Source: Thermoplasmata archaeon
Lineage (GTDB): Archaea > Thermoplasmatota > Thermoplasmata > Thermoplasmatales > Thermoplasmataceae
DNA length: 45,100 bases
Direction of reading: 5' to 3'
NCBI GenBank assembly: GCA_021802205.1
Contig: JAKAAT010000007.1
Coordinates: 1 to 45,100, forward strand
The notes below the pieces were generated by a model. It made no database searches, was not told the origin of the DNA, and saw nothing but the letters and a program-made list of their open reading frames with translations. Each line of letters starts with the position of its first letter. Positions within the stretch are counted from its first letter, which is position 1. This document shows positions 1-14,203 of this stretch, piece by piece. The translations under genes were made by a program, and so were the position numbers.

Positions 1-24
1 TCTTGCAGTTACTGAAAAAAAGAT

Positions 25-38
25 TATTATATTATTAA
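25..38 (+). promoter_or_regulatory. TATA-like box of tRNA-Val
   Basis: An AT-only stretch containing TTATATTATT lies about 26 bases before the first base of the tRNA, the usual TATA to start distance in archaea. No clear BRE is visible. The assignment rests on position only. Confidence 0.4.
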
Positions 39-53
39 AGACTTATCCACTAA

Positions 54-126
54 GGGCTCGTAGTCTAGTGGTTATGATACCGCCCTTACAAGGCGGTGGT
101 CACCGGTTCAAATCCGGTCGGGCCCA
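54..126 (+). tRNA. tRNA-Val (anticodon TAC)
   Basis: The sequence folds as a cloverleaf. The acceptor strands GGGCTCG and CGGGCCC pair (one G-T), the anticodon stem CCGCC/GGCGG closes the loop CTTACAA with anticodon TAC, and the T arm has the GGTTCAAATCC consensus. The discriminator is A126 and no CCA is encoded. The 3' end from base 110 is repeated at 12577-12594, so this gene is the integration target of the downstream element. The tRNA remains complete because the element supplies an identical 3' end. Confidence 0.95.
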
Positions 127-127
127 T
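110..127 (+). repeat. attL core, 3' end of tRNA-Val
   Basis: The 18 bases AAATCCGGTCGGGCCCAT, covering the T-arm 3' strand, acceptor strand and discriminator of tRNA-Val, recur identically at 12577-12594 in the same direction. Direct repeats of a tRNA 3' end bounding an integrase-bearing segment are the classic mark of integration by a tyrosine recombinase. Confidence 0.9.
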
Positions 128-130
128 TCT

Positions 131-141
131 ATATACGGTTT
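131..141 (+). repeat. Left arm of attP inverted repeat
   Basis: ATATACGGTTT starts three bases after the attL core. Its exact reverse complement AAACCGTATAT stands at 12561-12571, five bases before the attR core. In the excised circle the two would flank the 18-bp core as an inverted repeat, as integrase core or arm sites do. Confidence 0.7.
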
Positions 142-376
142 ACTTTTTTGTTAAAACCCGTAATATAAAGTATTTCCAAGCAATTAAATGGTATATGTAT
201 GTTAATATTTTGCTCCTGCCTCTATATACTCTTAGCAAGTTTTTGGATCGGGTTTATAAATATAAAAATAGTTGAATAAAAATAAATAATTATTTAATTT
301 CCATCTTATTAAATAAACTCTATACGCAAATAGTATTCTTTTCCATTAATGTAATTTAATACTATAACATTAGCTT

Positions 377-601
377 CTAACATACCCCCAATGCTATTTG
401 AAATAATTCGAAATCTTTTAAAATATCACTCTCTCCTACTTCCCTAATTCCTTCCTTGAGCCACGCTTGATGTGCTACAGCTATTTTTTCATATAGCTCA
501 TCCTCACTATATGCTTGACCATCATCAAGAATTTTATATAACATCTCCTCCCATAAATCCGCCCTTTTTCCTTTCTTAAACTCATCTGCTGATATAGGCA
601 T
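377..601 (-). CDS. Small acidic protein of unknown function
   Basis: A 74-residue, charged, probably all-helical protein (MPISADEFKKGKRADLW...) that I do not recognise. It has no membrane segment or cysteine motif. The ATG at 601 is preferred over an in-frame GTG at 610, since neither has a Shine-Dalgarno site and a TATA-like AT stretch lies just upstream. It is the first gene inside the left end of the integrated element and stands alone. Small charged proteins in this position are often regulators or antitoxin-like, but no partner gene is seen. Coding status is supported only by the clean reading frame and amino-acid composition. Confidence 0.55.
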   Translation of the reverse strand: MPISADEFKKGKRADLWEEMLYKILDDGQAYSEDELYEKIAVAHQAWLKEGIREVGESDILKDFELFQIALGVC

Positions 602-693
602 TTTATTCACTTATTTTTATATCATAAGATAATTACATTATCTATCATAATGTTCTTAATAAATTTTATTTAAAAGGATAATCAATTATTAAG

Positions 694-978
694 ATGCTAA
701 TGAAAGAAATGGTATATATTGTAATGATATAGATAATTAATGGAATTATAGCTATATTAGTAATATTAGGAATAGTTTTAATAATATATGGTGGTTATAA
801 TGGACCTGGATATAATTATCATTATAATTTAGCTGATATTTCTTTAGGTTCGGTGTTTATAATAATATCGGTAGCGATCTTTATAATCAGCAAAAAACAA
901 TACAATAATTTATTCTCCTTTAATCTTTCCCCATCTGCTTTTATTTTCAACCTGCCCAGCCAAAATATCAATATTTGA
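694..978 (+). pseudogene. Two-helix membrane protein frame with in-frame TAG
   Basis: Reading from ATG 694 gives 12 residues, then a TAG at 730-732, then about 80 more open residues in the same frame. The part after the TAG looks like a real small membrane protein: a hydrophobic helix (NGIIAILVILGIVLIIYGG), a polar Tyr/Asn turn, and a second helix (SLGSVFIIISVAIFIISKK). No ATG, GTG or TTG lies between the TAG and the first helix. The last 20 codons run into the 3' end of the opposite gene and may not be real. A nonsense-mutated gene is the simplest reading. A short AT-rich stretch of intergenic DNA that encodes Ile/Leu by chance remains possible. Confidence 0.3.
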
Positions 979-1998
979 AATAGCACTGTATAATTCAGAT
1001 GTGATGGTTCCGAATTCATGGCTATTGTAGTATCTGAAGCCTGAAGCATCCTCCTTTACACCCTCTATTCTATCCAGTGAATTGTTTATATGTTCCTTTA
1101 TTTTAGGCAACATTTTCTGTGGATTATGTACCATGAAAGCATTAAGTTCATTCTGTGCATTCTCCTTTTCCTTTTCAATCTGCTCCTTCAATGCCTGCCT
1201 TTTTTCACTTAACTTGTAATCTGAAAGCATATCCTCCTTTTCAATTAGATTCTTTATTTCCTCTGCCTGTTCAGTTAAAAGTTTTAAAGTGTTTTTCTGG
1301 TCAGTGGTAAGTTTAATTTCATGCTTCAAGACATCATAAACTTCATTCGGGTTTGGATTCCTGTCAAACACGGATTTGCCAAATAAAATAAGCGAATCAT
1401 TGAAACTTTTAATCTTCTTTAAAACTTCTGGATCCTCAAGATTGCCCACCTGCTTGTCTAATTCATCTTTGCGTTTATTTGCTTCTTCCAGACTGGCTTC
1501 CACTTCCTCGTATTTGGCTTCCAGTTCTTTAATTTCAGATTTTAACTTATATTCCTCATCCTTATCTTTCCTTATCTGCTCCAGAATCCCATTATATTCT
1601 TCTTTTAAATCTTTAATTTTGTTTTCTTCGTTCTTAACTTCCACAATTCCACTTAACTCATTTTTTACTTCCTCCAAATATAGTGGATTATCCGGATCAC
1701 AAATTTCTTCAAAAATAGGTCTCATTTTTTCATATTTCTTGTAAATGAATTTGGAAGCTTTCGGATTAACTGTTCTTAAATAATCATAGGCTACATCTAC
1801 ATCTATATCTTTCTTAAGTAAAAATAGTTCTACAGGTTCCAGAGATGCACCCTTCTCGTTTTCTTCGTTGATTTGATGCAATAATTTACTAATGTATTTT
1901 GGTCTGCTCAAACTTTTTGAAGAACATAAAGAATCAAGAATACCTATATCCTTTTTATCCAATTCAAGTGAAATTGTTTTTTTATTCACATCTGTCAT
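910..1998 (-). CDS. Ribbon-helix-helix / coiled-coil DNA-binding protein
   Basis: A 362-residue protein. Residues 7-45 fit a ribbon-helix-helix fold: a short strand of alternating residues (KTISLELD) followed by two helices with a small turn (IGILDSLCSSKSLSRPKYI). Residues about 115-185 and 235-290 are rich in Glu, Lys and Leu heptads and read as coiled coil, split by a conserved-looking non-coil segment (residues 195-225). An RHH head on a long coil is typical of DNA-organising or segregation proteins of plasmids. The 180 bases upstream of its ATG hold repeated ATATGAT motifs, partly in 11-base phase, the kind of array an RHH protein binds. I infer autoregulation and/or a centromere-binding role. 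No ParA-type ATPase is nearby. Start ATG 1998 directly precedes the RHH strand. Confidence 0.7.
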   Translation of the reverse strand: MTDVNKKTISLELDKKDIGILDSLCSSKSLSRPKYISKLLHQINEENEKGASLEPVELFLLKKDIDVDVAYDYLRTVNPKASKFIYKKYEKMRPIFEEICDPDNPLYLEEVKNELSGIVEVKNEENKIKDLKEEYNGILEQIRKDKDEEYKLKSEIKELEAKYEEVEASLEEANKRKDELDKQVGNLEDPEVLKKIKSFNDSLILFGKSVFDRNPNPNEVYDVLKHEIKLTTDQKNTLKLLTEQAEEIKNLIEKEDMLSDYKLSEKRQALKEQIEKEKENAQNELNAFMVHNPQKMLPKIKEHINNSLDRIEGVKEDASGFRYYNSHEFGTITSELYSAISNIDILAGQVENKSRWGKIKGE

Positions 1999-2034
1999 TA
2001 ATATTACAATATAAACCTATAAATAAACTTTTTT

Positions 2035-2180
2035 ATAATCATATGATTTGAAAACCCTTTATTTTAAAGTGTTATAAACGATTATAATATGCCTCAATAT
2101 GATAACAATATGATAATCATATGATTATAAAATCCTTTATTTTATTAGGTTTTAAATTATTATCATATTGAAAATATGAT
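2035..2180. repeat. ATATGAT array upstream of the RHH gene
   Basis: ATATGAT or its complement occurs at 2038-2044, 2041-2047, 2097-2103, 2108-2114, 2116-2122, 2119-2125, 2162-2168 and 2174-2180. Three direct copies start exactly 11 bases apart (2097, 2108, 2119). Two spots form palindromes: 2113-2128 reads ATAATCATATGATTAT perfectly, and 2035-2048 is a 14-base match to it. 2162-2180 is an inverted pair. This is the expected layout for operators or a centromere of the adjacent RHH protein. Local AT richness raises the chance background. Confidence 0.6.
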
Positions 2181-2339
2181 TTTTTAACAACTTTAATTTT
2201 TGCAGTTTAATGTATATATATAATACGAACCCTTTATGTAAAACAGTGTTTGAGCCACCAAACTATGTATAGTAATTTTCCCTTTAAATCATTAGCTCCC
2301 TAAAACCTCCAAATTTTTTAAAAAAATCACAAAATGAAA

Positions 2340-2368
2340 TTACATAGTTTAAAATCTAAACTATGTAA
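2340..2368. repeat. 11-bp inverted repeat
   Basis: TTACATAGTTT (2340-2350) and AAACTATGTAA (2358-2368) are perfect inverted arms around a 7-base spacer. A third partial copy, AAACTATGTA, is at 2260-2269. It lies between the 3' end of the HEPN-like gene and the ATATGAT array, in a 445-base stretch without genes (1999-2443). It could be an operator or an RNA hairpin; nothing else was seen in the stretch. Confidence 0.45.
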
Positions 2369-2443
2369 AGTTTTGTGGGCATTTTTATAATAAAGTTAAG
2401 AACTTATATAATAATAGAATTTTCCATTTTTCTTTTAATTTAT

Positions 2444-2971
2444 TTAAGCAGGATACTTTTTAATAAATAATTTTATTCCCTCTATCATCAACTTAACAGT
2501 CTCTCCATTAATTTCTTTTGAGTCTGGATGTGCAGCATCATTTCTTAATCCTAACCAACTTGTAACAGATTTATTATCAGTTTTATCAATAATATTATTT
2601 TTATATAATTCATTATTCAAAGAATCGGCATTTTTATATTTCCCATCATTAATAATAGGAATTGAGTTCTTCTCTGCTAGTTTTCTAAGATGACTTTCCA
2701 GAGATACGCCTGCAACAACGGCGGAGGCTCTTATATAATTTTGGGATAATAGATATTCTGCCTGTTCCAGTATATCGGTAAATAATTCTTCATCTATCAT
2801 TTCATTAATATTTGTTAAAAAATCGTTTTCATAAGCCTTTTTAAGACTTATTAATACCCCATATAGTTGCGTTATCTTAATTGAATTAAAAGGTGCGGTT
2901 ATAGAGTCGGCAATTTTTCTATATTCACTATTGATCGGACTTAAATCCAGTATAGTCTGTTTTAAACTCAC
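2444..2971 (-). CDS. HEPN / DUF4145-like protein, N-terminus cut by frameshift
   Basis: A 175-residue mostly helical protein. Residues 79-97 (YIRASAVVAGVSLESHLRK) followed later by LRNDAAHP (R143, H148) match the pattern of abortive-infection and DUF4145-type HEPN domains, in which Rx4-6H is the ribonuclease motif. The listed start is a GTG at 2971. The frame stays open upstream and joins, after a one-base shift in a 10-T run (3020-3029 on the plus strand), to about 35 further codons beginning at TTG 3125, so this reading is probably not full length. HEPN proteins often act as RNases in defence or toxin systems. No MNT nucleotidyltransferase or other antitoxin is adjacent, so no toxin role can be claimed. 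Confidence 0.6.
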   Translation of the reverse strand: MSLKQTILDLSPINSEYRKIADSITAPFNSIKITQLYGVLISLKKAYENDFLTNINEMIDEELFTDILEQAEYLLSQNYIRASAVVAGVSLESHLRKLAEKNSIPIINDGKYKNADSLNNELYKNNIIDKTDNKSVTSWLGLRNDAAHPDSKEINGETVKLMIEGIKLFIKKYPA

Positions 2972-3125
2972 ATATAATTCTGAATGCCATTCTGCCTTGA
3001 TTAAATAGTTAGCAGAAGATTTTTTTTTTGGCTAAAGCAATTATATTTTGTGTCAGCTCTGTTGCATTATATAGTACTGTATTAATACGCCTTAAAGCCT
3101 CCTCTTTGCTTATACTTATTGGCAA
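2972..3125 (-). pseudogene. Out-of-frame N-terminal part of the HEPN-like gene
   Basis: On the minus strand, TTG 3125 opens LPISISKEEALRRINTVLYN..., a helix-forming sequence ending in a lysine run coded by ten A residues. One base shift there enters the frame SSANYLIKAEWHSELYV that leads directly into the GTG start of the downstream reading frame. The continuity of helical, charged sequence on both sides suggests one original gene of roughly 227 codons. The shift may be a mutation, a sequencing error in the homopolymer, or slippage-based switching. Confidence 0.45.
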
Positions 3126-3389
3126 GGTAATTTGTATTATACATAATGTACGAATAAATTTTTCTATTAAAAATATCAGTTTTTAAATATAATTAAAATT
3201 AATGCCTAGTAAAGAAAATGATGGAAATTTGAATTTACAGTAAATGTATTACATTATCTAAAATTATATTTTTCATATTATTATATTTAAATTTAACTAT
3301 ATGATTACTAAATTGTATATAATATTATTTATATATCTATCTCTACAAAAATTTATTATTTATATTTTTATTGAATTATTATAGATAAA

Positions 3390-3707
3390 TTGCTTGTTAT
3401 TATAATATCCGGAAATGAGAATAAAGAAAAGGCTATTCTTGGATTGATGTTTTCATTGCACACAACAATTGAAACAAGGGTAATACTTTTTGGACCGTCT
3501 GAAAAACTTGCCGCAGAAAATGATAAGGATATACTAAATATGATAAACCAGCTAATAGATAAAGGAAATATACCAGTAGCATGCACAAACTATGCAGAAA
3601 ACAATAAAATAAGTGATGAATTATTAAAAATAAAATTAATATTAAAACCTGTTGGACCATTAATATCTGATTACATTAAGGATGGTTATGTTCCAATTAC
3701 ATTTTGA
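3390..3707 (+). CDS. DsrE/DsrF-like family protein
   Basis: A 105-residue protein with the DsrE-like pattern: an N-terminal strand (LVIIISGNENKEKAILGL) leading to a helix, a VILFGPSEKLA strand-turn-helix, a second helix (ILNMINQLIDKGNIPVACTNYA) and a C-terminal ISDYIKDGYVPITF. DsrE-fold proteins handle sulfur or act as peroxiredoxin-like and multimer-forming proteins. A cysteine sits in PVACTNYAE (about residue 66) where several family members have a sulfur-binding Cys. The start is a TTG at 3390 because the first strand begins immediately there and no ATG precedes it. It is opposite in direction to the MFS/TrmB/MBL operon, and its sulfur flavour matches the MBL gene. Confidence 0.7.
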   Translation: MLVIIISGNENKEKAILGLMFSLHTTIETRVILFGPSEKLAAENDKDILNMINQLIDKGNIPVACTNYAENNKISDELLKIKLILKPVGPLISDYIKDGYVPITF

Positions 3708-3908
3708 TTAACATTTAATTTCTATAATATTTATATTAAATACATATGTTATATTCTTATTGGGATAAAATTCATATGGTATTTTAGGGTCATTAAATCC
3801 ATTAATTGATGTAATAACATGATTTAAATTTGTATTATAAAATAGGTAAAGCCCAATATTTACATTTTTTATTTTATTATTTAGAGTTTCCAAAGATATA
3901 TCAAACAA
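3708..3908 (-). CDS. Doubtful short reading frame
   Basis: A 66-residue reading frame between the DsrE-like gene and the MFS gene, rich in Asn, Ile and Tyr with no recognised motif. It abuts the stop of the DsrE gene. It may be a remnant or simply AT-rich chance sequence. It is listed because the interval 3708-3954 has no other candidate. Confidence 0.2.
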   Translation of the reverse strand: MFDISLETLNNKIKNVNIGLYLFYNTNLNHVITSINGFNDPKIPYEFYPNKNITYVFNINIIEIKC

Positions 3909-3954
3909 TGGTATACATTTTTATCTTAGATTATTGTAATTATGTAAGAAACCA

Positions 3955-5190
3955 TTAACTCTTAGTCCGGCAAGCAACCATCACTATTGCACCTGAAATG
4001 GCCATCAGTAGTGCTACGGATATAAAGACAGACCTTACATTCAACGCCGTTGCCAATATTCCAACAAAGAGAGCACCAAATCCATAACCGGAATCACGCC
4101 AGAGCCTGTATATACCAAGTCTCGTGCCCCTTTCGGATGGTTTGACATTATCGTTCACAGCAGCAATGAGAACCGGATACAGAAACGCCATTCCGAGGCC
4201 AGAAAAAAAACTCAGCAAGGCAATATTTAAAATGCCATGAAAGAAAACGAATCCCAACATGGCAGTTGAATCAATCCAGAAGCCTGTGATTATAAGAATG
4301 TTACGGCCAATATGGTCTGATAGCTTTCCTGTGATTATCTGGAGCAAACCCCATGTTATCTGATAAATTCCAACCAAAATCGCTATGATAAATAGATTGA
4401 AGTGAAGCGTAAGAAGGTACAATGGCATGAGCCCCCAGAATACAACATCCACGAATTTCTCAATTAGCCCTGCCTGTGAATAAGAAAAGAGAATTCGGTT
4501 TGACCATGAAGTATCTGTAAACATCTTCATGAATGAGGTTGAAATACCTGTTTTGTTTATTCCAGCATCCTCTGTTCTGGCAAAGCCTACAGTTTCCCTT
4601 ATTGTGAAAGCCGTTATTCCTATGGCTACAATTACAACAATGATTCCAAATATAAATGACGCCCCCCTTAATCCATACAACCCTGCCATATAGCCCGTAA
4701 TTACTCCTGCGGTAGCCTGACCTATATAGCCAGCCGCCTCATTCAATCCAACAGTATGGCCTCTAGATATGCTTCTGCTCAGATCCAGCCCTGCGGTCAC
4801 AGTCATGGTCCAGGCGAATGCCTGGTTAACGCCCACGTCTATATTGGCCAGCACAATCATATTCCAGCTTGTTGAGAAGTAGAATATAAAAGGAACTGGA
4901 ATAGCAACAAGCCACCCTAAAAGAAGCAGTTTCTTTCGTCCAATGTCATCCGATATTTTTCCAGATACAAGATTGAGTACACTCTTTGTGAAACCAAAAG
5001 CTGCCAGAAATGAAAGTATGTAAAGATATGATGAAATGTGATATATATTCTCAGCCATTGCAGGAACGAGAACACGCTCTATCCCCAAGAACCAGCCAAT
5101 GAAAATGGTTAGTAAAAGAAGGATGACGTACTGCGTGCCATTATGAGTTAATGTTTGTGATGCAGCACTATTTTTCACAGGGGGAATCAT
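3955..5190 (-). CDS. MFS transporter (element cargo)
   Basis: A 411-residue protein with about 12 hydrophobic helices. The MFS signature between helices 2 and 3 reads GKISDDIGRKKLLLLG, and its second-half counterpart reads GKLSDHIGRNILIITG, so both halves are intact. The substrate cannot be read. The start ATG 5190 overlaps the stop of the TrmB gene by 4 bases, so the two are translationally coupled, and the decayed sulfur-type hydrolase is first in the same operon. Relatives of such trios move sulfur compounds or drugs, which is inference. This gene and the regulator look less AT-rich than other genes of the element, which suggests later acquisition as cargo. Confidence 0.85.
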   Translation of the reverse strand: MIPPVKNSAASQTLTHNGTQYVILLLLTIFIGWFLGIERVLVPAMAENIYHISSYLYILSFLAAFGFTKSVLNLVSGKISDDIGRKKLLLLGWLVAIPVPFIFYFSTSWNMIVLANIDVGVNQAFAWTMTVTAGLDLSRSISRGHTVGLNEAAGYIGQATAGVITGYMAGLYGLRGASFIFGIIVVIVAIGITAFTIRETVGFARTEDAGINKTGISTSFMKMFTDTSWSNRILFSYSQAGLIEKFVDVVFWGLMPLYLLTLHFNLFIIAILVGIYQITWGLLQIITGKLSDHIGRNILIITGFWIDSTAMLGFVFFHGILNIALLSFFSGLGMAFLYPVLIAAVNDNVKPSERGTRLGIYRLWRDSGYGFGALFVGILATALNVRSVFISVALLMAISGAIVMVACRTKS

Positions 5191-5966
5191 AAATCATCCC
5201 CTTTTGGGCATGCAGGCTTGGATCTGTCCCATATCATTTCGAAATGTTCTCTGGACTGTAAGACACAATTACTGCATGGTTCAACTATTCCGTAGATATC
5301 ATGGTCCTTCTCTATGGATATCATGAACGATGTCCCACCATCAAAGATATAATATCTTGAGTTCAACCTGTCATATATCCTTGAAAATGGTAGAAGATCC
5401 CTTGGCATTTTTTTTATATCACATGCGGAAACTATAATCTTCAGCTGAACATCCTTTTTTGCCTTGAGAAGTTCACACAATTTATTATCGATTGTTCTGA
5501 TGCCGGGATCCATCACATAAATTGAATGCCGTGAATTTTTTATCATGGTTTGGAGGTAATACTGTACTTTACTTAAACCAACTATGCTCCATGACACTTT
5601 AAGATCCTTCGATTTATCTGCATTATTCCTGATGATTGACAGATAATCGTTTATATTATCCTCAATCTTGTCTATCTTGGACCTGTTCTCCTCACACAGG
5701 ATGCTAATTACAGTAGCCGGTTCTGGTATTGAAAACATGGTTGGATTACCTTCTATTTTCTGTACCAGATTGAGTTGTATCATTTTCTCCAAAACTCCGT
5801 ATACCTTGGTGTAAGGGATTTCATTTGCTTGTGACAGCTCCCTTGCAGTCATCTCCTTGTGGGATAAAGTTAGAAAAAGCTCTGCCTCATAGTGTGTGAG
5901 ACCTAAATACTCAAGCTCATTTAATATTTCAGAATGTTTGTCGGCAATATTTTCCAGGTTTGACAT
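5187..5966 (-). CDS. TrmB-family transcription regulator
   Basis: A 259-residue protein. Residues 15-80 form the TrmB winged helix (LGLTHYEAELFLTLSHKEMT... ending YTKVYGVLEKMIQLNLVQK). A linker helix follows (KIDKIEDNINDYLSII), then a PLD-like effector domain (SIYVMDPGIRTIDNKLCELL, and DGGTSFMISIEK near residue 215). TrmB proteins sense sugars or other small molecules and repress or activate transporter operons. Cysteines in IVEPCSNCVLQ near the end could bind a metal or sense redox state, which is speculative. The gene starts two bases after the hydrolase stop and overlaps the MFS gene by 4 bases, so it probably controls this operon. Confidence 0.85.
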   Translation of the reverse strand: MSNLENIADKHSEILNELEYLGLTHYEAELFLTLSHKEMTARELSQANEIPYTKVYGVLEKMIQLNLVQKIEGNPTMFSIPEPATVISILCEENRSKIDKIEDNINDYLSIIRNNADKSKDLKVSWSIVGLSKVQYYLQTMIKNSRHSIYVMDPGIRTIDNKLCELLKAKKDVQLKIIVSACDIKKMPRDLLPFSRIYDRLNSRYYIFDGGTSFMISIEKDHDIYGIVEPCSNCVLQSREHFEMIWDRSKPACPKGDDL

Positions 5967-5967
5967 A

Positions 5968-6636
5968 TTAATCTACCCCCATGTTTAACTCTTCTATCTT
6001 TTTCTTTTCAGGCATGGGCTGAAACTGGATACTTCCAAGCCTTTTTCTAAAATCATTGTATAAGTCTTCCTGAAATGGAGGGTTACTTAGCCGTTTATAT
6101 AAAAGTGTATAAGAGACCTCTAGACTAATTCCTGCATTGCATGCAGATCCTGAGTGGTGTACTGGCATTAATTCATACGAAGTATATATTACAGAAATAT
6201 ATGATCTTCCAACATATCCAACAAATAATATGTCACAGGTAAATCTAGTCGATAGAGCTTTATAATTTCTATTATCATTATAACGCAATAATAATATGCT
6301 CTCAGGTGTGTGTGATACCTCAATCTTTGCATTTCCTATTTTCAGGTTATCGTCCTCTTTCAGTGGAAGAAAGCCAAAAACTATCTTTACATCTTCAAAC
6401 ATATAAATTGGAGCGCTGGTAAATATCTGTAATTTTTTGGTGCCTGGAATATGGTCTGTGTGAATGTTTGTTTCTATTATACAAACTATCTTCAGTAACA
6501 AAGAACCAGTCATCTCAATGTATTTATCTACTTCGTTTTTAGGATCAATTACAAATGCTTTGCCGGAACTGGAAAATCCAAAAATGTATGAAGCACATGA
6601 ACGTCCATTATTTATTATCTGGCTTACAAGTGACAT
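5968..6636 (-). pseudogene. Decayed persulfide-dioxygenase-like metallo-beta-lactamase
   Basis: The 222-residue frame aligns by eye along its length with the MBL family that includes persulfide dioxygenases: CASYIFGFSSSGKAFVIDP near the start, IETNIHTDHIPG at 54-65, LFVGYVGR, and SACNAGISLE at the end. Key metal ligands are missing. The HxHxDH motif is N57-x-H59-x-D61-H62, the HTPGHTPGS segment is shortened to SHTPES, and the GD of the bridging aspartate motif has become GY. The reading frame is open, yet the enzyme is unlikely to bind two metals or even one iron normally. It is first in an operon with a TrmB regulator and an MFS transporter. Either a recently decaying gene or a non-catalytic descendant. 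Confidence 0.65.
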
Positions 6637-6783
6637 AATTAGTTATTATCCACTGGATAATAAATATTTTGATCATCCTTAACTACGTGGCAATTTCAAT
6701 ACAAATAGCCAGGCACACTTATATTTATAATAGAATAAGAATAAAAATAGTCACACTAAAATAATTAGATGCCACAATATATG

Positions 6784-7109
6784 TGTCCCAACCCCATTTA
6801 AATAACTGTTGGGACAATTTTTTCCTTTGGAAATAAAGGCTCAGCTTTCAATTGTCCCAACCTTCTTCTAATTTCCAGTTTTACCTTGCTAAATACAACG
6901 ATATAAATACAAACAATAATGTAAAATCGTTATATTCTAATAAACTAATCAATTCAATTAAATGTTGGTTGGGACACTTTAATGGAAAACCTGTGTATCA
7001 CTAATAAAAAAGTGTCCCAACAGTACTGTTGGGACAGATAAGCATAAATTTTATTGCTAAGCCATTATTTTCAAGCATTTTTGATGTCCAAACACCAATT
7101 GTTGGGACA
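6784..7109. repeat. Seven TGTCCCAAC repeats in both orientations
   Basis: Exact copies of TGTCCCAAC are at 6784-6792, 6853-6861 and 7013-7021, and of its complement GTTGGGACA at 6808-6816, 6968-6976, 7028-7036 and 7101-7109. The GC-rich 9-mers stand out in AT-rich DNA. Two pairs form inverted repeats: 6784/6808 around an AT-rich spacer, and 7013/7028 as a perfect palindrome. Probable binding sites of an element-encoded protein. Confidence 0.8.
7013..7036. repeat. Perfect 24-bp palindrome
   Basis: The half-site TGTCCCAACAGT (7013-7024) is followed at once by its exact reverse complement ACTGTTGGGACA (7025-7036). It contains two of the seven nonamers head to head, so a dimer is expected to bind; a cruciform is possible. 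Confidence 0.8.
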
Positions 7110-7636
7110 CAACCCGTGGTAGGTTAACTTTATACCATGCAATGATTCAATAATATAATGCGTTTATAATATGTTTTGTTTATTATAAAAAGAACATAAA
7201 ACCTTATTAATTGGTCTGGGTTACATTATTGGAGCCACAACTCCATTTTCATAGGCATTAGTTCTCAGTGACTGTGGCACCTCTTGTTTAATTGTCATAA
7301 AATAATGTGGGTGCTATTTTTTTATTCTGGTTCAAGACATAAACTTAATGGGTATTATAACACTCCAAAATAACCCCATTTTAAATGAATCATTATCTTA
7401 TGGTTAATTTATACACATGCAAAGTGTTTCATTTAAAATAATAATATAAAAGGCAATTTTATAGCTTAAAAACTAATATAAAAATGGTTGTCTGAACTCA
7501 TATCAATTGTTTTATTCTTTTTTATTAATCAACCAAGATCATTTATATCTGGCACAAGAACACAATTATTAATCCCTTCTGGTTCTTTTATTGTTCTGGA
7601 TCCAGACACCACACCCTTTTATTCTTTTAAAAAAAG

Positions 7637-7933
7637 TTGTTACCAATTGTTACTAAATTGTTACAAAATTGTTACTTCAGAAACCCTTTAATTCATTAAC
7701 TCAAAATAACCTTTTCAAGAAAGTAACAAAGTAACAACAAATTCTCCCTATGGAAAAAATAATTTAAATTAAAAAAACAAAATAAAAATCAAAATAAAAT
7801 TCAAAAAATAAAAAAATATTTTTGCATAGGAACGATGAAAAAAGTTGTTACTTTGTTACTTTTAATGCAAACCCTTTAAAACACTGGCTTAAAAGAGTAA
7901 CAATTTTGTAACAATCAATTGTTACTTTGTTAC
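7637..7933. repeat. Twelve TTGTTAC repeats, partly helically phased
   Basis: TTGTTAC starts at 7637, 7647, 7658, 7669, 7845, 7853, 7919 and 7927; the complement GTAACAA starts at 7723, 7731, 7897 and 7908. Spacings within groups are 10-11 bases (one helical turn) for 7637-7669 and 7897-7908-7919, and 8 bases for the pairs at 7723, 7845 and 7919. Such regular iterons suggest cooperative binding on one DNA face, as at plasmid origins. Confidence 0.8.
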
Positions 7934-7985
7934 TTTTTATAAAAATAATTAAAGATAGTTACAGAATAGTTAAAAAATAATAAAA

Positions 7986-9908
7986 TTATAAACCAAGATC
8001 TTCTGGTGATGGGACATTGCCGTTCCAAATATTAACATTATTCTCGGTTTTCTCAGTTTTAGTCTCAGTTTTAATTTCCTTTTCAGTCTCTTTTTCATTT
8101 AGCATTTCTGCGTATTTATAAGGCAAATTCCCAGAAATACCTCTATTTCTATTCCCTTCAATATATGTGATTTTATTTACAAATCCATTACTTTCGGCAA
8201 AGCTGTTGGCACTTTGTTTTATATTCATCCCTTTTTTTATTATATTAAACCCAGTTGTTGTGATTTGGAAGATCCATTTCTTTTTATCTTTTTTATCCTG
8301 CTCAATTTTAAACTCATTCTTCATTTCTTTGTCCATGAACGATAAATTTTTATAACCATCCTGTGTATGTTGAGCATCTTCTTTGTTATAATACAGGCTT
8401 AACATCTTTGCAAAGAATTCGTCAATAATTTCAGGCACTTCTATTTTAGAAACCACTGGAATAAATCCTTCTGCATCCATGATCCAAGCACCAAGCAGGG
8501 CAACAACCTTGCGTCCATCCTTCTCTGTTTCCTTTAATTCCTTATATTTATTGATAATAGCCGATGCTTTTTTATCTTTTAATTTCTCATATAGCATACC
8601 ACCAGAACTTTTATTCATTCTGCTTATAAAGTCAGAACCCTTATTTTTCATTTTATTATCCCTTATTATATCTTTATCATCGAATACAAATTTGTATATT
8701 CTCTTGTCCTGTGCCATTTTCTCGGTTGCATCCAGATCTTTCACATCTTTGGATTCTGTATTCCTTGAGAATATATAAGTGGTTGTTACATTATAAATTG
8801 TCATTGTTTGGTCTCTATTGCCTCTGGCATTCTTGCCCCTGCTTTTTAATCTTCCCAGTGCCTCTGCATTAAGTTTCGCCTCCTCAATATAAATCGGGAG
8901 ATTGGTTGTTCCTGTAAAACTTTTCTGCCTGAATGGAGATGAAACCGTGTCATCCTGCATTGTAGCCAGAAAAATACCATAATCCATGCCGAATGTCATA
9001 TCAATGGTGAAACTTTTTCCTGTGTCTGATTTTCCTATCGCATCGATTGTTATGGGGTAATCTTCATAATTAAGCACGTTTATTATATTTGCACCTATAA
9101 TTGCATAATGCAAAGTTAATTGCTTTGGGCTTAACATTGAAATGCCCTCGTTATAAAGTTCTGGATTAATATTGCCCACATTTAAGCCCTTTAATATAAC
9201 AATTTGATAAGCATCCTTATTTCTGGCATATCTTTTCTCAGGGAATTTTATTATGCCATTTTCAATATAAAGATTTGGCTCACGATATTCGCCCTCCTCG
9301 ATAGGCAGGGCATCTATACATGCAGTGAATGAATTCACGCTTGATGGATATACCATCATAAGAACAAAGTCGGATTTGGCATATATTGTATCCTCAAATT
9401 TTAACATATCTGTATTTGTGTCATTATCTATTATTTTAAGCCTTTTTAAATTATTCTTGATGGGTTCATTATTATAATTTTTTAGTGTTATCGCAGTTTT
9501 TATCAAATGGAAACCATCTGTTTTGAAAACTTTTTTAATTGTGTATGGTCTGCCATCATTATCCCATCCTGCAAACTCAATCGGATTCCCGTCTTCCCAT
9601 TTTATTGCTGTCCATGCCCCTGCTATGCCTTCACTTCTTTTCTTGTTTATATAGGTAATTTTGGCTTTTAAAATATCACTCCATACATCCTTTGCCAGAT
9701 TATCACTATATCCATTAATAAATTTAAAAACGTTGTTATAATCATCGTTAGTCCATTCATTATTTTCAAGAAAACTTTCTGCCCTGTATTTATCTATATC
9801 CTCAAGAATAGTCCCTTTTTCATTGATTTCTATTAATGTTTTTAAAGCATTTCTGAGATCTGTGCTATAAACTATTTCTGGATCAACATTTTCTTTATTA
9901 TCTGTCAT
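7986..9908 (-). CDS. 640-aa P-loop ATPase, probable replication protein
   Basis: The protein has a clear Walker A motif at residues 292-299 (GKSDTGKS) after a strand ITIDA, and a Walker B-like LPIYIEEAK at about 337-345. A possible sensor segment (TIYNVTTTYIFSRNTE) follows at 370-385. The N-terminal 270 residues hold an unrecognised domain that includes AGAWTAIKWEDGNPIEFAGW. Residues about 520-600 look like a winged helix, and the tail is a Glu/Lys/Thr-rich linker. The order resembles DUF927/SF3-type helicases of plasmids, but I cannot name the family. It is last in a four-gene operon, two bases after the LSm-like gene, and its 3' end faces the iteron region. Initiator or helicase function is inferred from that setting. 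No primase (Prim-Pol or TOPRIM) motif was seen. Confidence 0.7.
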   Translation of the reverse strand: MTDNKENVDPEIVYSTDLRNALKTLIEINEKGTILEDIDKYRAESFLENNEWTNDDYNNVFKFINGYSDNLAKDVWSDILKAKITYINKKRSEGIAGAWTAIKWEDGNPIEFAGWDNDGRPYTIKKVFKTDGFHLIKTAITLKNYNNEPIKNNLKRLKIIDNDTNTDMLKFEDTIYAKSDFVLMMVYPSSVNSFTACIDALPIEEGEYREPNLYIENGIIKFPEKRYARNKDAYQIVILKGLNVGNINPELYNEGISMLSPKQLTLHYAIIGANIINVLNYEDYPITIDAIGKSDTGKSFTIDMTFGMDYGIFLATMQDDTVSSPFRQKSFTGTTNLPIYIEEAKLNAEALGRLKSRGKNARGNRDQTMTIYNVTTTYIFSRNTESKDVKDLDATEKMAQDKRIYKFVFDDKDIIRDNKMKNKGSDFISRMNKSSGGMLYEKLKDKKASAIINKYKELKETEKDGRKVVALLGAWIMDAEGFIPVVSKIEVPEIIDEFFAKMLSLYYNKEDAQHTQDGYKNLSFMDKEMKNEFKIEQDKKDKKKWIFQITTTGFNIIKKGMNIKQSANSFAESNGFVNKITYIEGNRNRGISGNLPYKYAEMLNEKETEKEIKTETKTEKTENNVNIWNGNVPSPEDLGL

Positions 9909-9909
9909 C

Positions 9910-10224
9910 TCAGATCACCTCAACCCATAAAATACCAGACTTCATGAAAATCCTGTCTTTTACTACATTTCTCACAATCTCTCTGCCACCAATATTTGTT
10001 TTATCTTCTGTATTTATAGATATCAGAATATTATACATGCCCAATTCCTTTAAAGTTCCTTCAAAAACCTGATTATTTGTAAGCCCAATTTTAATTTTTT
10101 TGCCGATAAGCTCTTTAACAAAAGAATCTGTGCTATATCGCAAGGGCTTTTTATCGATATTGTTAAATACTTTTAAATCCTTATTGTTCTTGTTGTTGTC
10201 CACAACATTGTTATTTTTATACAT
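9910..10224 (-). CDS. LSm/Hfq-like RNA-binding protein
   Basis: A 104-residue protein with an Asn/Lys-rich tail (1-25) and an Sm-like fold. Sm1 spans about 35-69: LIGKKIKIGLTNNQVFEGTL then GMYNILI, matching the pattern of a hydrophobic Gly, a beta hairpin, EGxL and M-x-N. Sm2 is near the end: DRIFMKSGILWVEV, in the place of the usual IRGxxI strand. The Sm1 aspartate is replaced by Gly and the Sm2 Arg by Lys, so RNA binding may differ. A Shine-Dalgarno GGAGGT precedes the ATG and lies within the end of the upstream tiny gene. Its stop is next to the ATPase start, so the two are probably made together. An LSm protein on a plasmid could control copy number RNA or mRNA; this is speculation. Confidence 0.65.
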   Translation of the reverse strand: MYKNNNVVDNNKNNKDLKVFNNIDKKPLRYSTDSFVKELIGKKIKIGLTNNQVFEGTLKELGMYNILISINTEDKTNIGGREIVRNVVKDRIFMKSGILWVEVI

Positions 10225-10226
10225 TT

Positions 10227-10376
10227 TTATTTAACCTCCTGTTTGCTTAAATTCCATAAAAGACTAAACTTTGCGAGGAATTCCTGTTCGGTCATCTGTG
10301 ATGGCTCTGCCATTATTATGGTTTTTAATTTTTCATCGTTTTTTGCAATTTCTCGAAGTGGTTTCATATCTATCAT
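10227..10376 (-). CDS. 49-aa protein, operon member
   Basis: MIDMKPLREIAKNDEKLKTI... is a 49-residue helical protein I do not recognise. Its ATG overlaps the stop of the 53-aa gene by four bases (ATGA), a GGTGG ribosome site lies 8-10 bases upstream, and its own last codons carry the GGAGGT site of the LSm gene. This tight packing supports it as real despite the size. Codon 4 is also ATG. A small replication accessory or regulatory peptide is possible. Confidence 0.6.
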   Translation of the reverse strand: MIDMKPLREIAKNDEKLKTIIMAEPSQMTEQEFLAKFSLLWNLSKQEVK

Positions 10377-10534
10377 TTTATATCACCCACCTTTATAATT
10401 AACCCACCATCGACTCTCTCATACTCTACTTTGCTCTCCGATGTAATGTGCTGTTCATCCACCAAATAAAAGGGTACTGGCACATACATCGAGGTTCTTA
10501 GGTAAATCGGTCTTCTCCCGTTCATCTTTGCCAT
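10373..10534 (-). CDS. 53-aa basic protein, possibly AbrB/MazE-like
   Basis: MAKMNGRRPIYLRTSMYVPV... continues into VEYERVDGGLIIKVGD. The order basic head, strand with VPVP, hinge, then a V-E-Y-E-R-V-D-G-G-L-I-I-K hairpin resembles the swapped-hairpin (AbrB/SpoVT/MazE) fold, which would make it a DNA-binding autoregulator. The match is weak because the usual LGIKEGD turn is altered. It is the first gene of the operon and couples to the 49-aa gene by an ATGA overlap. A TATA-like AATATTTAAAAAA about 20 bases before the ATG suggests a nearly leaderless transcript. Confidence 0.55.
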   Translation of the reverse strand: MAKMNGRRPIYLRTSMYVPVPFYLVDEQHITSESKVEYERVDGGLIIKVGDIK

Positions 10535-10643
10535 ATTTATTATAATATTTTTTAAATATTAAAAAAAAGATGGAGAAAAAAAAGATGTCTACATTTATAA
10601 ATATAGCAATATTTAAGTAATTACAAAGTATTAACATAGTATA
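10535..10643. promoter_or_regulatory. Divergent promoter region of the replication operon and wHTH gene
   Basis: TTTATAAATA at 10594-10603 is a good archaeal TATA box for the rightward wHTH gene (ATG 10644). On the other strand AATATTTAAAAAA (10548-10560) sits where a TATA box for the leftward operon (ATG 10534) should be. The A-rich tract 10559-10583 between them may be bent DNA. Products of either flank are candidates to regulate here. Confidence 0.5.
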
Positions 10644-11114
10644 ATGATAACAATACCTGATCCAGACATAAGCAAACCGTTGAAATATAACATTTTATAC
10701 CTTTTAATCTCTGGCAGGTATGATATTATAACAATGTATGAAATTTTAAAAGAAGCAAGGTATATGCCAGATAACAAGGATAAATACAAGGGCATTGAAC
10801 GGGCATTAAGGGAATTGGATAAGGAGGGCTTTGCATTAAAAAAGGATATCGTTAAAGGTGTGGCATATTATTCTGCCAGTCAAGAAACCATTTTAAAACT
10901 TACAGAAAACGTTATAAAAGAAGCCAATAAGGTAAATCATGATGCATCCCTGTTAAATGATGAAATAGAAAATATTGATAATATTTATGAAAAACTTGGG
11001 CATGGAAGTTATCTGGGCATAGACAACAGCCAAGCATCAAGGTTAAATGGGTATCTTGATGAAAAATGGTATTATGTTGATAAGAAAGGGCATATTAAGA
11101 AAACACAAGAATAG
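10644..11114 (+). CDS. Winged-helix regulator
   Basis: A 156-residue protein. Residues 10-80 fit a winged helix: KYNILYLLISGRYDIITMYE, a recognition-helix region (YKGIERALRELDKEGFALKK) and a wing (GVAYYSASQETILKL). The rest is a helical, acidic segment and a Tyr-rich end (DEKWYYVDKKGHIKK) that may serve as dimerisation or ligand part. It is transcribed away from the replication operon and shares its control region, a common place for a plasmid copy-number or integrase regulator. The ATG follows a TATA box by about 45 bases without a Shine-Dalgarno site. Confidence 0.65.
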   Translation: MITIPDPDISKPLKYNILYLLISGRYDIITMYEILKEARYMPDNKDKYKGIERALRELDKEGFALKKDIVKGVAYYSASQETILKLTENVIKEANKVNHDASLLNDEIENIDNIYEKLGHGSYLGIDNSQASRLNGYLDEKWYYVDKKGHIKKTQE

Positions 11115-11199
11115 CCTTATAGTTCATAATAAAATAAGCCCTCAAATTTGCGATTTAAGGCTTATTCAATATGGCAATGGATAATTATATGGATCAACA

Positions 11200-12528
11200 T
11201 TAAGAATATTCCACGATAACACGATCATTACCCAGTGCCATTTTAACAGTAAAACCTGCATTTATGTATTCCTCAACCTGATCGATGCTTATAACTTTCT
11301 GTTTATGGCTTTTTGATAATTCATCCTTATCCTGCTGGATCTGGGCAGTTATATCTATTTGCTTGGTGCCAAACAATTTCTCACGTGCCATTTTTGTTAT
11401 TTCATCTGGGTTCATGTCAAGAAGCTTATTCTTTGCTATTTCCTCCTCTGTAAACCCTGCCATCATAAGCAACTGGCTTCTAAATTTAACTTCTATCTCA
11501 TCTTCGGTCATGCCCTTCCTCTCGGTTTCAAGGTATTTAGTGGATTTAAGATAAGCCGATCGCATGGATTCTATTTGGTCTTGTGATAATTTTTTATCAG
11601 TGGTATATTTGCTTTCTATATCACCAACATGTCCCATAAAAAAGCTCCTGTAATCCCTTATTATAAGCCTCTCATCCTGTGCCATTAACAACCTGCTATC
11701 GAAGTAAGCCCTTAAAACGTATGGTCTCCCGTTAAATCCTGCATTGCGTATTGCATTCCTCATAAGGTCTCCAACATTAACTGCTGTTATGTGCTGTTTT
11801 GCCCTGTATCCTAATTTAGAAGCTGTTATAATTGCAGATTCTGGTGTTATAACCTCCCCTGATCTGATCCTTTCAATTAGGTAATTTTCAAGGTACATGC
11901 AACCCTCCTGCCCAAGAAATGTTATATACTTTTTGCCTGTTTTGGATAATTCAGCCCTTACGTTAATCTGTGCAGGTATTTTTAAAAATGTGATCTGATC
12001 GCCATCAACACTTAAATCAGGCATATCCTCTATTTTTAAACCATCTGTGCCTTTATAATTGCCAAGAACACCAATTCTTACACCAGTAAATGCCACAATG
12101 GCACAGGCAGTCCTTTCCCTGCTGTCACCAGCATTGAATATCCTTTTAAGCTCCTCCTGTGTTGGTATTCTTTCATTTTTTAATGTTACCGATATATTTG
12201 CATCCCTTATCTTTATCCTGCGTGGCAGTTTTATGCCATTAAAAAGAAGCCATGATTTAACAGCTTTAATTGTGCTGTTTATATAAGAACCTGCATTGCC
12301 CTTTTTCTCCCTCATAATAATGTAGTCATCCATAAGATCAGATAATGTTTTATCCCTCATTTTAACAAGCTGTTGTGGTGTTTTTTCCATTTCTATGCAG
12401 AATGATCCAAGCCTTCTTAAATAAACATCCCCTGTTATCCTTGATCCTGCCTCTGTATTGTGCTTCCACCTTGCAATATCCCTATCTTTCAATAAATAGC
12501 CATACTTTTCTTTACCCATGCTTATCAT
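11200..12528 (-). CDS. int: Tyrosine recombinase (integrase)
   Basis: A 442-residue archaeal-type integrase with a complete catalytic set: R151 in FTGVRIG, a probable K in ELSKTGKK (196-200), Y270-V-L-R273 in place of HxxR, H300 in FFMGHVGD, and Y308 in ESKYTTDK as nucleophile. The N-terminal 130 residues hold a SAM-like core-binding domain. The C-terminal 110 residues are an extra helical extension. The gene lies 48 bases from the attR core, pointing inward, and is not interrupted by att, unlike SSV-type integrases that split on integration. Expression after integration, and hence excision, should be possible. It recombines the tRNA-Val 3' end with attP. ATG 12528 lacks a Shine-Dalgarno site; M4 is an alternative. 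Confidence 0.92.
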   Translation of the reverse strand: MISMGKEKYGYLLKDRDIARWKHNTEAGSRITGDVYLRRLGSFCIEMEKTPQQLVKMRDKTLSDLMDDYIIMREKKGNAGSYINSTIKAVKSWLLFNGIKLPRRIKIRDANISVTLKNERIPTQEELKRIFNAGDSRERTACAIVAFTGVRIGVLGNYKGTDGLKIEDMPDLSVDGDQITFLKIPAQINVRAELSKTGKKYITFLGQEGCMYLENYLIERIRSGEVITPESAIITASKLGYRAKQHITAVNVGDLMRNAIRNAGFNGRPYVLRAYFDSRLLMAQDERLIIRDYRSFFMGHVGDIESKYTTDKKLSQDQIESMRSAYLKSTKYLETERKGMTEDEIEVKFRSQLLMMAGFTEEEIAKNKLLDMNPDEITKMAREKLFGTKQIDITAQIQQDKDELSKSHKQKVISIDQVEEYINAGFTVKMALGNDRVIVEYS

Positions 12529-12560
12529 GTAATGATACAGATACAGTATATAAACTTTTT

Positions 12561-12571
12561 AAACCGTATAT
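12561..12571 (+). repeat. Right arm of attP inverted repeat
   Basis: AAACCGTATAT is the exact reverse complement of 131-141 and lies on the element side of the attR core. It falls between the integrase start and the core, so it may also overlap the integrase promoter. Confidence 0.7.
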
Positions 12572-12576
12572 CGTAT

Positions 12577-12594
12577 AAATCCGGTCGGGCCCAT
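12577..12594 (+). repeat. attR core
   Basis: AAATCCGGTCGGGCCCAT repeats tRNA-Val 110-127 in direct orientation with no tRNA body upstream of it, so it is the orphan 3' fragment left after integration. It marks the right border of the element. Confidence 0.9.
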
Positions 12595-12724: not shown

Positions 12725-12862
12725 ATGAGCCAAGAAGTCCAAATGGATATTAAAGATGTAAGATTCACTGTAGAAAAACATCTTAGGGATTTAGGTATAG
12801 AAGGACAGATCAGAATAGCATCCGCAAAATTTAACCTTAAAGCGGGAAGTCTCCTTCCGTGA
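12725..12862 (+). pseudogene. 5' fragment of a small gene interrupted by the IS
   Basis: ATG 12725 opens MSQEVQMDIKDVRFTVEKHL..., an apparent native sequence up to codon 36 (F, TTT 12830-12832). Beyond TTTAA (12830-12834) the frame runs into the insertion sequence and stops at TGA 12860-12862. Removing 12835-14220 joins it in frame to 14221-14362. The original would be an 83-residue alpha/beta protein with a strand-rich second half. I do not recognise the family. It sits directly upstream of a retropepsin-like gene that has its own Shine-Dalgarno site. Confidence 0.6.
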
Positions 12863-12871
12863 GGGAGGAGA
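12850..12871 (+). repeat. Left-end hairpin of the IS
   Basis: TCTCCTTCC pairs with GGGAGGAGA over nine positions with one T-G, closing a GTGA tetraloop. Subterminal hairpins at this position are what Y1 transposases recognise in IS200/IS605 elements. Confidence 0.6.
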
Positions 12872-12919
12872 TGAGAGCATAATTTTATAGGTAATAAATT
12901 CATATATATTCTAAAAAAG

Positions 12920-14203
12920 ATGATACTGAGAGCTTATAAATTCAGAATATACCCGAAGAAGAAACAGATTGAGAAAATCAATTCAATCCTGAATTTATCA
13001 TATAAATTATACAATGCAATGCTTGAACAGAGAAAAATGGCATATGAATTGAAGAAGGATTTCCATTCAAGCAATAATGTAAATTATCTATCACAGCAGA
13101 ATGAACTACCTGAATTGAAGAAATATTTCCCTGAATATAGAGAAATTTATTCATTGGCATTGCAGGATGTTGCAAGGAGGCTGGATAAGGCATATGACAA
13201 CTTCTTCAGGAGAATAAGGGAAAAGAAGAATGGGAAAAGGATTAAGGCAGGATTCCCGAGATTCAAATCAAGGAATAGCTATAAATCCATAACATACCCA
13301 CAGTCTGGATTCAAGATAATGGATAACGGTCATCTATTTCTCTCCAAGCTCGGGGAAATAAGAATGTTCAAGCACAGGGAAATAAAGGGAAATATTAAAC
13401 AGGCAACCATTAAAAAGGATAAAGCAGAAAACTACTTTGCAACCTTTATTGTGGAAGAAAACACTGAGAACAGGAATTATTCAGAGCTACCTGATAATCC
13501 CGTGGGAATAGATGTAGGTCTCATCAAACTTATAGCAACCACAGATAATGAACCAGCAGATCCACCCAAATATTTGAGAAAGTCAGAAAAGAAACTAAAA
13601 AATGCACAGAGAAACCTATCAAGGAAGCAGAAAGGTTCAATGAATAGAATGGAAGCAAGGGTAAGGGTAGCTAAGATAAGCATCCATATATCCAACCAGA
13701 GGAATGATTTCTCACAGAAACTATCAAGAAAGTTGGTAAACAATCACAACTTCATAGCATATGAAGACCTGGATATTGCCAATATGCTGAAGAACCATAA
13801 GCTGGCTAAAAGCATAGCAGATGCTTCATGGGGTATACTTATAAATAATACTATTTACAAGGCTGAGAGAGCCGGTAAATACTGTATTAAGGTAAACCCC
13901 AGGAATACCTCCAAAGCATGCTCCTATTGTGGTAATATAATAGAGGAACAATCCCTTGATGACAGGGAATATAACTGTAAAGTATGTGGTTTATCTATGG
14001 ACAGGGATGACAATGCAGCAGTGAATGTATTGAATGCTGGATTAAATAAAGTATTCAATACCTTTATTATAATAAAGCAGAAAAAGAGCAAACATAATAA
14101 GAGAAGAGTACCCACGGACTGTGGGGAATTCATGCCCGTGGAGGAACTGGCCAATACCTTAAGGCAAGCCAGTCCCATAGAAGCGGGAAGCCCCGTGCGT
14201 TAG
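12920..14203 (+). CDS. tnpB: TnpB, RNA-guided nuclease of IS605 type
   Basis: A 427-residue protein with all RuvC residues in place: D198 in GIDVGL, E282 in AYEDLDI and the aspartates in MDRDDNAAVNV (361-364). The zinc ribbon has both pairs, CSYC (334-337) and CKVC (353-356). The N-terminus MILRAYKFRIYPKKKQ is the usual start of the family, and length is normal (about 400). Known TnpB proteins cut DNA next to a TAM using an omega RNA encoded at the right end of the element. The TAM here should match the left flank TTTAA. The gene overlaps the right-end hairpin. Nothing suggests inactivation. Confidence 0.92.
   Translation: MILRAYKFRIYPKKKQIEKINSILNLSYKLYNAMLEQRKMAYELKKDFHSSNNVNYLSQQNELPELKKYFPEYREIYSLALQDVARRLDKAYDNFFRRIREKKNGKRIKAGFPRFKSRNSYKSITYPQSGFKIMDNGHLFLSKLGEIRMFKHREIKGNIKQATIKKDKAENYFATFIVEENTENRNYSELPDNPVGIDVGLIKLIATTDNEPADPPKYLRKSEKKLKNAQRNLSRKQKGSMNRMEARVRVAKISIHISNQRNDFSQKLSRKLVNNHNFIAYEDLDIANMLKNHKLAKSIADASWGILINNTIYKAERAGKYCIKVNPRNTSKACSYCGNIIEEQSLDDREYNCKVCGLSMDRDDNAAVNVLNAGLNKVFNTFIIIKQKKSKHNKRRVPTDCGEFMPVEELANTLRQASPIEAGSPVR

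Follow-up and report, generated by a model that had tools for sequence, protein, structure and literature searches.

A 12.5-kb mobile element occupies the tRNA-Val gene of an uncultured Thermoplasmata archaeon, on contig JAKAAT010000007.1 of assembly GCA_021802205.1. The whole stretch analysed, 45,100 nucleotides long and referred to here as the window, is the complete contig C41 of a draft genome (105 contigs; 84.6% complete, 4.05% contamination). As the best explanation of the whole we propose, with a probability of about 0.78, a plasmid-like integrative element that entered tRNA-Val site-specifically by means of an attachment site (attP) with symmetric arms.

Structure of the attachment site

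The target tRNA gene is intact, and its 3' end is repeated exactly at the other boundary of the element, next to an unsplit integrase gene (int). The features on which the argument depends are as follows, by window position and strand.

54-126, plus strand: intact tRNA-Val(TAC) gene called by ARAGORN, the target gene, which forms the left attachment site (attL); left flank and tRNA also found in 9 of 9 same-genus genomes
110-127, plus strand: attL core AAATCCGGTCGGGCCCAT, 18 bp, exact copy at 12577-12594
131-142, plus strand: far arm ATATACGGTTTA, the tRNA-side attP arm, exact reverse complement of 12560-12571
11200-12528, minus strand: tyrosine recombinase (integrase), 442 amino acids (aa), unsplit; PHROG integrase E 5e-5; AlphaFold2 (AF2) fold nearest XerA 5hxy by E-value
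12547-12554, minus strand: TATA-like box TTTATATA between the near arm and the int start, a putative assignment read by eye
12560-12571, plus strand: near arm TAAACCGTATAT, the integrase-side attP arm, exact reverse complement of 131-142
12577-12594, plus strand: core of the right attachment site (attR) AAATCCGGTCGGGCCCAT, 18 bp, exact copy of 110-127

The 18-bp core consists of the final 17 nt of tRNA-Val plus one base. When the two ends are joined, it is flanked by the arms, a 12-bp perfect inverted repeat with core-to-arm spacers of 3 and 5 and 26 nt between the repeats. The dyad centre falls 9 nt inside the tRNA 3' end, at the T-stem/acceptor junction, and the arms span 14-25 nt from it; read in the direction of int, the near arm has a GGTTT that begins 20 nt from the centre, and the family GGTTT block lies at 20-24 nt. 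The attR core is 48 nt upstream of the integrase open reading frame, so attP is not inside the gene, and the TATA-like box is 19-26 nt upstream of the int start. Mononucleotide shuffles of both 40-bp flanks gave an inverted repeat of at least 12 bp in 1 of 4000 cases and of at least 11 bp in 5 of 4000.

The sequence-only reading of this DNA had described an integrated element with identical tRNA-Val 3' ends, a reconstructable attP and an intact, unsplit integrase, and all of this stands: the repeats are exact, the full 442-aa reading frame has all five catalytic-type residues, and the arm symmetry is real and is shared by relatives, in which it is positioned alike with respect to the tRNA end. 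Its judgement that the symmetry exceeds chance is fair for the window alone. The inverted repeat, which it gave as 11 bp with spacers of 5 and 3, has those spacers and is perfectly complementary but is 12 bp long.

Conservation of the arm layout among relatives

Relatives of the element occur in two orientations. In type A, the commonest among them, the integrase begins just past the tRNA, whereas in type B, which includes the window, the tRNA lies at the far end from the integrase and on the other strand. Direct repeats of complete type-B elements measure 11-23 bp. The dyad count started from 22 candidate direct repeats, each element being closed in silico, and in 14 of these the inverted arms were centred 9-10 nt inside the tRNA 3' end as given by ARAGORN. 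Eight candidates were dropped before the count (L041, a near copy of L040, and seven with repeats of 10-15 nt), and L036, whose tRNA ARAGORN did not call, was added. The centre of L070 was shifted by one base after an over-called tRNA end was noticed, and this remained the weakest row (10 of 21).

With the centre fixed, the 15 complete elements kept have 10-17 dyad matches among the 21 positions lying 10-30 nt from the centre. The mean for 12 representatives without near copies is 14.25 of 21, versus 6.06 (standard deviation 0.56, maximum 8.33) when the far flank was mononucleotide-shuffled 20,000 times. Each element's own centre was the best of 17, that is, better than its 16 neighbours within 8 nt, in all 15 elements, although the margin was a single match in the two weakest, L033 and L070. 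Arms of a given element also appear to change together, because a far half scored lower with the near half of a different element than with its native partner (means of 11.4 versus 14.3 for type B and 10.2 versus 14.2 for type A).

The near arms have a recurrent motif as well. A GGTTT or GGTTC block begins 20 nt from the centre in many relatives, types A and B alike. Among type-B near sites, near copies such as L034/L094 included, G is found at 21 nt in 22 of 22 and T at 22 nt in 20 of 22, and the int start lies 56 to 78 nt from the centre, a variation that the arm-to-centre distance does not share. Over 63 near sites of type A, the region 20-30 nt from the centre is where GGTTC and AACC are most frequent, the consensus being GGTTCA-AACC, and many near arms are small palindromes of the form GGTTCnnAACC. 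Either GGT at 20 or GAAT at 25 was present at 37 of 58 tRNA ends adjoining int, versus 9 of 48 other tRNA ends, and 4 of those 9 motif-bearing controls are, by eye, far arms of type-B elements. The near half-site recurs over several archaeal phyla.

Several observations weigh against a common, fixed layout. The best dyad lies elsewhere in 8 of the 22 candidate direct repeats (10-13 nt, one of 15), namely L070 and L054, L082, L087, L095, L106, L108 and L110; the last seven were missed by the stricter core search and were taken as chance repeats. Spacing is not universal: a Thermoplasmata subgroup has the block CGAATAC about 4 nt farther out, and 21 of 58 type-A near sites have neither motif at the exact place. 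The strict core search found far ends in just 7 of 66 type-A loci, many of which have short flanks. Finally, a blind scan free to choose among about 100 centres at each locus attains 12-15 matches at unrelated centres, and a lone high dyad score therefore means little without a fixed centre.

A joined attP in a relative

One contig, L059 (G031:C4), has a single core with both arms, 67 nt upstream of its integrase. Core included, its left half is identical to the far half of L061 at 32 of 36 positions and its right half to the near half of L061 at 28 of 36. As far as these alignments go, L059 is the joined attP layout predicted from its kin. It was spotted by eye first and then tested, and the case rests on its likeness to the L061 halves, not on the dyad score: that score, 12 of 21 at the expected centre, is not distinctive in a blind scan of 121 loci, whose centres were scattered and reached 15 matches; there L059 was not among the best 14, tying their lowest score. 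L059 may be a free circle or a tandem copy. No self-closure of its contig was found, and none of 29 loci, some of which are not whole contigs, closed on itself by a terminal overlap of at least 15 bases.

Integrase family

The window integrase is a member of an archaea-wide tyrosine-recombinase family that was met in 34 of the 61 genomes searched, its own genome counted. Relatives are encoded in 190 stretches of the genome collection, and the 80 best loci, those retained, come from Thermoplasmata, Bathyarchaeota, Thaumarchaeota/Nitrososphaeria, Hadesarchaea, Archaeoglobales and others. Two bacterially labelled records, L127 and L128, also have this archaeal integrase; they are probably mis-binned, the alternative being transfer.

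Residues R151, K196, R273, H300 and Y308 are invariant in all 54 aligned family members, the window included, and R273 is part of a Y270xxR273 motif; we take these columns to be the catalytic residues of tyrosine recombinases. The window protein had no match in a Pfam search, and its PHROG integrase match is weak; Pfam Phage_integrase was matched, also weakly, by 3 of 8 aligned near relatives. The confident AF2 model (predicted local distance difference test score, pLDDT, 90.1; predicted TM-score, pTM, 0.74) is read as a core-binding and catalytic fold with an additional C-terminal part, the division into parts being our own reading of the model. Core-binding-type helices begin at residue 10, and no N-terminal arm-binding domain was seen ahead of them on reading the model. 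The best Foldseek match was XerA (5hxy, E 7.8e-9), with modest TM-scores (0.31/0.47), and Cre chains reached 0.46/0.60; by E-value, the closest solved folds are Xer enzymes (5hxy, 4a8e).

Among 110 distinct integrases, 82 are type A, 22 are type B and 6 were uncalled, part of these calls being made by eye from the near core. Orientation changes 8 times by parsimony on a quick tree, and 4 changes are forced by well-supported branches alone. The type-A L077 lies inside a well-supported group of seven that holds the window integrase. A further type-A integrase, L042 (G019:C1), has a near core without a full tRNA and, further on, an 81% homolog of the window's 14375-14734 protein; this arrangement resembles a tandem insertion into a tRNA-Val locus.

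Unoccupied sites and the age of the insertion

In nine same-genus genomes (G001-G009), sequence matching contig C5 leads into an intact tRNA-Val and then into something other than this element (9 of 9). The insertion is recent, since the element is absent from the same tRNA-Val in all nine. Across 12 tRNA-Val loci (those of G001-G009 plus G010-G012), no alignment of the window arm over the first 20 offsets matched at more than 8 of its 12 positions. At the arm position past tRNA-Val, L196 (G012:C25) has a GGTTC, which is perhaps the end of another element. In G006, synteny with the window from 18260 onward resumes about 1.1 kb past the tRNA.

G003 (L184, G003:C97) is no bare empty site. There, a second copy of the core, with one mismatch, lies 2.98 kb from tRNA-Val and is followed by the window's right flank at 96% identity; a 75% relative of that same flank stands directly past the tRNA. 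The left side of the second core matches L061 at 25 of 36 positions, like the far half of a type-A element. The second core marks another element or a remnant at the same site, and on these comparisons two relatives seem to have received different elements at one shared core.

The draft assembly provides a strong hint of a mixed population. Reverse-complemented, the upstream contig C5 shares its final 127 bases with window 1-127, the last of them being the final base of the core. The end of contig C21 (G000) likewise coincides with window 12830-12956, exactly 127 bases, and these two overlaps suggest that 127 is the word length of the assembler. The C21 overlap is at the edge of a transposon-like TnpB gene (12920-14203), which probably has further copies in the genome and coincides with a branch in the assembly. 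With the C5 overlap reaching just to the end of the core, the point at which occupied and empty sites diverge would coincide with a branch of the assembly graph, which suggests that the sampled population is polymorphic at tRNA-Val. The 127-base overlap is also compatible with a close strain carrying another insert, or with a branch at the other side of the shared word.

We found no free circle: neither a tblastn search of phages and plasmids nor one scan of viral contigs turned up a relative. The intact integrase and the contig overlap fit a polymorphic site, and the element may be living and excisable, as the sequence-only reading predicted. The comparison with related strains proposed in that reading went mostly as expected, the element being missing from tRNA-Val in all nine congeners, except that the G003 site holds another, 2.98-kb insert. 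Assignment to Thermoplasmatales is plausible, as the named integrase loci most similar to the window's come from 'Thermoplasmata archaeon' metagenome-assembled genomes, but those names do not fix the order.

Gene content

Besides int, the following genes were identified in the element.

377-610, minus strand: 77-aa protein, the last gene before the tRNA end, which ends towards the far arm
910-1998, minus strand: 362-aa coiled-coil (SMC-like) protein; 48% homolog in L033
2444-2971, minus strand: cargo, DUF4145/HEPN-like protein, both matches under the curated cut-off
3955-5190, minus strand: cargo, MFS transporter
5187-5966, minus strand: cargo, TrmB-type regulator
5968-6636, minus strand: cargo, metallo-beta-lactamase-fold protein with a worn-looking metal-binding motif, NIHTDH
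7986-9908, minus strand: 640-aa P-loop protein, putative replication protein; GKSDTGKS by eye; 58-60% homolog in the tRNA-Arg element L033
9910-10224, minus strand: 104-aa Lsm/Hfq-like protein, a backbone gene; weak matches; present in four distinct relatives
10373-10534, minus strand: 53-aa protein; 66% identical homolog in L035
10644-11114, plus strand: 156-aa protein beside int; homologs near int in L078 and L035; DUF3087 weak, E 0.057

The integrase, Lsm-like, 640-aa and coiled-coil proteins are held in common with L033 (G005), a same-genus sister element in tRNA-Arg. Within the 61 genomes, the 640-aa protein, which may act in replication, was found in that of the window itself and in G005, and G027 had a 28-residue fragment of it; the window copy had no Pfam or PDB match, and its AF2 model was too poor to use (pLDDT 34). 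The 156-aa protein had no family match at E 0.01 and may be a winged-helix-like directionality factor. We read the MFS, TrmB, metallo-beta-lactamase and HEPN-like genes as cargo because they have no counterpart in the relatives compared, save distant MFS matches in two loci. The metallo-beta-lactamase-fold gene is probably decayed, NIHTDH looking like a worn version of the usual metal-binding motif. A defence-system reading of five element proteins was rejected, as matches were to the coiled-coil protein alone.

Discussion

We propose the following mechanism. A plasmid-like element would enter tRNA-Val by site-specific recombination between a symmetric attP, whose core is copied from the tRNA 3' end and placed between two inverted arms, and a chromosomal site (attB) that would be the armless tRNA end alone. 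The outer arms would position two integrase protomers, or a protomer and a partner, around the core; attP would then be paired with the armless tRNA end and strands exchanged near the centre, leaving attL and attR with one arm each. The arms would in this way provide the two-fold symmetry that is missing from this part of the tRNA gene. If they do, polarity would be set by the core alone, and the integrase could therefore stand at either end, as it does in relatives. The arms may well be needed for strand exchange. Our first choice is that the integrase would bind them through core-binding and catalytic contacts of an extended half-site; alternatively, a partner such as the 156-aa protein may do so. 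Since many arms are palindrome-like, there is room for a dimeric partner, for which this neighbour would be the natural candidate.

A different assignment of arm contacts, to the C-terminal extension of the integrase (about residues 330-442) acting as an arm-binding domain, would suit a model that has an extra C-terminal part and in which no N-terminal arm-binding domain is seen. We find it doubtful. The L033 integrase is a mosaic, in which the part matching window residues 331-442 is 88% identical and the other domains 49-53%, yet the arms of L033 are unlike those of the window; this single mosaic suggests from sequence comparison that arm choice follows the core-binding/catalytic part, not the extension. 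L071, L078, L075 and L077 have the opposite pattern (extension 44-67%, remainder 62-80%) with similar near arms. The arms might instead be operators, bound by the integrase or the 156-aa protein to control int, with the core sufficing for recombination. That the near arm is 5 bp from the TATA-like box, a possible place for an int operator, counts against our proposal, and the GGTTCnnAACC palindromes would fit such a role too. However, no gene starts beside the far arm, the nearest one (377-610, minus strand) ending towards it, and the near arm holds its distance to the crossover centre rather than to the int start; we regard operators as quite improbable.

That the inverted repeat is a chance match in an ordinary tRNA island is very unlikely indeed. 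The flanks are A+T-rich, shuffling them yields at least 11 bp in 5 of 4000 cases and free choice of centre gives high scores elsewhere, but none of this would explain why all 15 complete elements kept are centred identically with respect to the tRNA or why several archaeal phyla share a near half-site. A more substantial possibility, although still a minority one in our estimation, is that the element integrated once and is now a stranded relic unable to leave. The failure to find a free circle in phages, plasmids and one viral-contig scan is what such a relic would predict, as is the decayed look of the metallo-beta-lactamase cargo gene. Against this stand an intact integrase, perfect arms and cores, and the 127-base contig overlap, which ends at the core boundary as expected if some cells are without the element.

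In several respects the element with its symmetric-arm attP resembles known systems. Phage lambda Int also has an attP longer than attB with extra sites outside the core, but no N-terminal arm-binding domain is seen in our model, and the window arms are symmetric and close to the core. In SSV-type elements attP is within the integrase gene, which is split on integration, whereas here the integrase is intact and the core lies outside it. The SNJ2 integrase family, from a haloarchaeal pleolipovirus, likewise combines a short att core with an unsplit integrase. Its core is reportedly flanked by inverted repeats. That family is placed in Halobacteria only (PMC8371274). XerA/dif offers the nearest solved folds by E-value and a symmetric site, but the two 11-nt repeats of dif are separated by 6 nt (PMC8371274), whereas the window has 12-bp repeats 26 nt apart, in attP only. 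The fam30-08 archaeal recombinases, compared by description only, resemble the window family in having no Pfam domain and in occurring in several phyla (PMC8371274). The pNOB8-type elements share an unsplit integrase, a tRNA target left intact and direct repeats at both ends (PMC8371274, PMC3293823); their integrase gene directly adjoins the reconstituted tRNA and shares its strand (PMC3293823), whereas that of the window is found at the far end and on the other strand, and the available parts of both descriptions do not mention symmetric arms, which the window has. The att sites of pT26-2 plasmids overlap the 3' ends of many tRNAs and have a conserved imperfect palindrome, with attP inside the integrase gene in the Thermococcales members (PMC6972569). 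That palindrome, however, lies in the shared att site and is formed by the T-arm of the tRNA itself (PMC6972569), whereas the window arms are outside the core and present in the element only.

As a kind, tRNA-borne integrative elements with unsplit integrases are already well known, as is a palindrome in the tRNA part of att (pT26-2; PMC6972569). What appears to be new is the presence of fixed symmetric arms outside the core, over an asymmetric tRNA 3' end and indifferent to orientation. Symmetric attP arms are not described for this integrase family in the available portions of PMC8371274, PMC6563490, PMC6972569, PMC13107129, PMC12302457, PMC2718499 and PMC3293823, and none were found in the literature searched, which covered few subscription papers, had the original SNJ2 paper outside it and so is weak evidence of novelty.

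We give about even odds to the joint reading that, with no domain dedicated to arm binding, these elements use the arms both to move from one tRNA target to another and to reverse their orientation. Dyad symmetry in DNA is crucial for most of the enzymes studied, and the target region at the 3' end of tRNA genes has none (PMC8371274); a conserved attP dyad over this asymmetric region offers a testable answer to the problem. The arm rule also offers a practical way to mark both ends of unrecognised archaeal elements with short direct repeats, and from the shared layout follows a rule, open to testing, on how integrases of this kind locate their target and exit from it.

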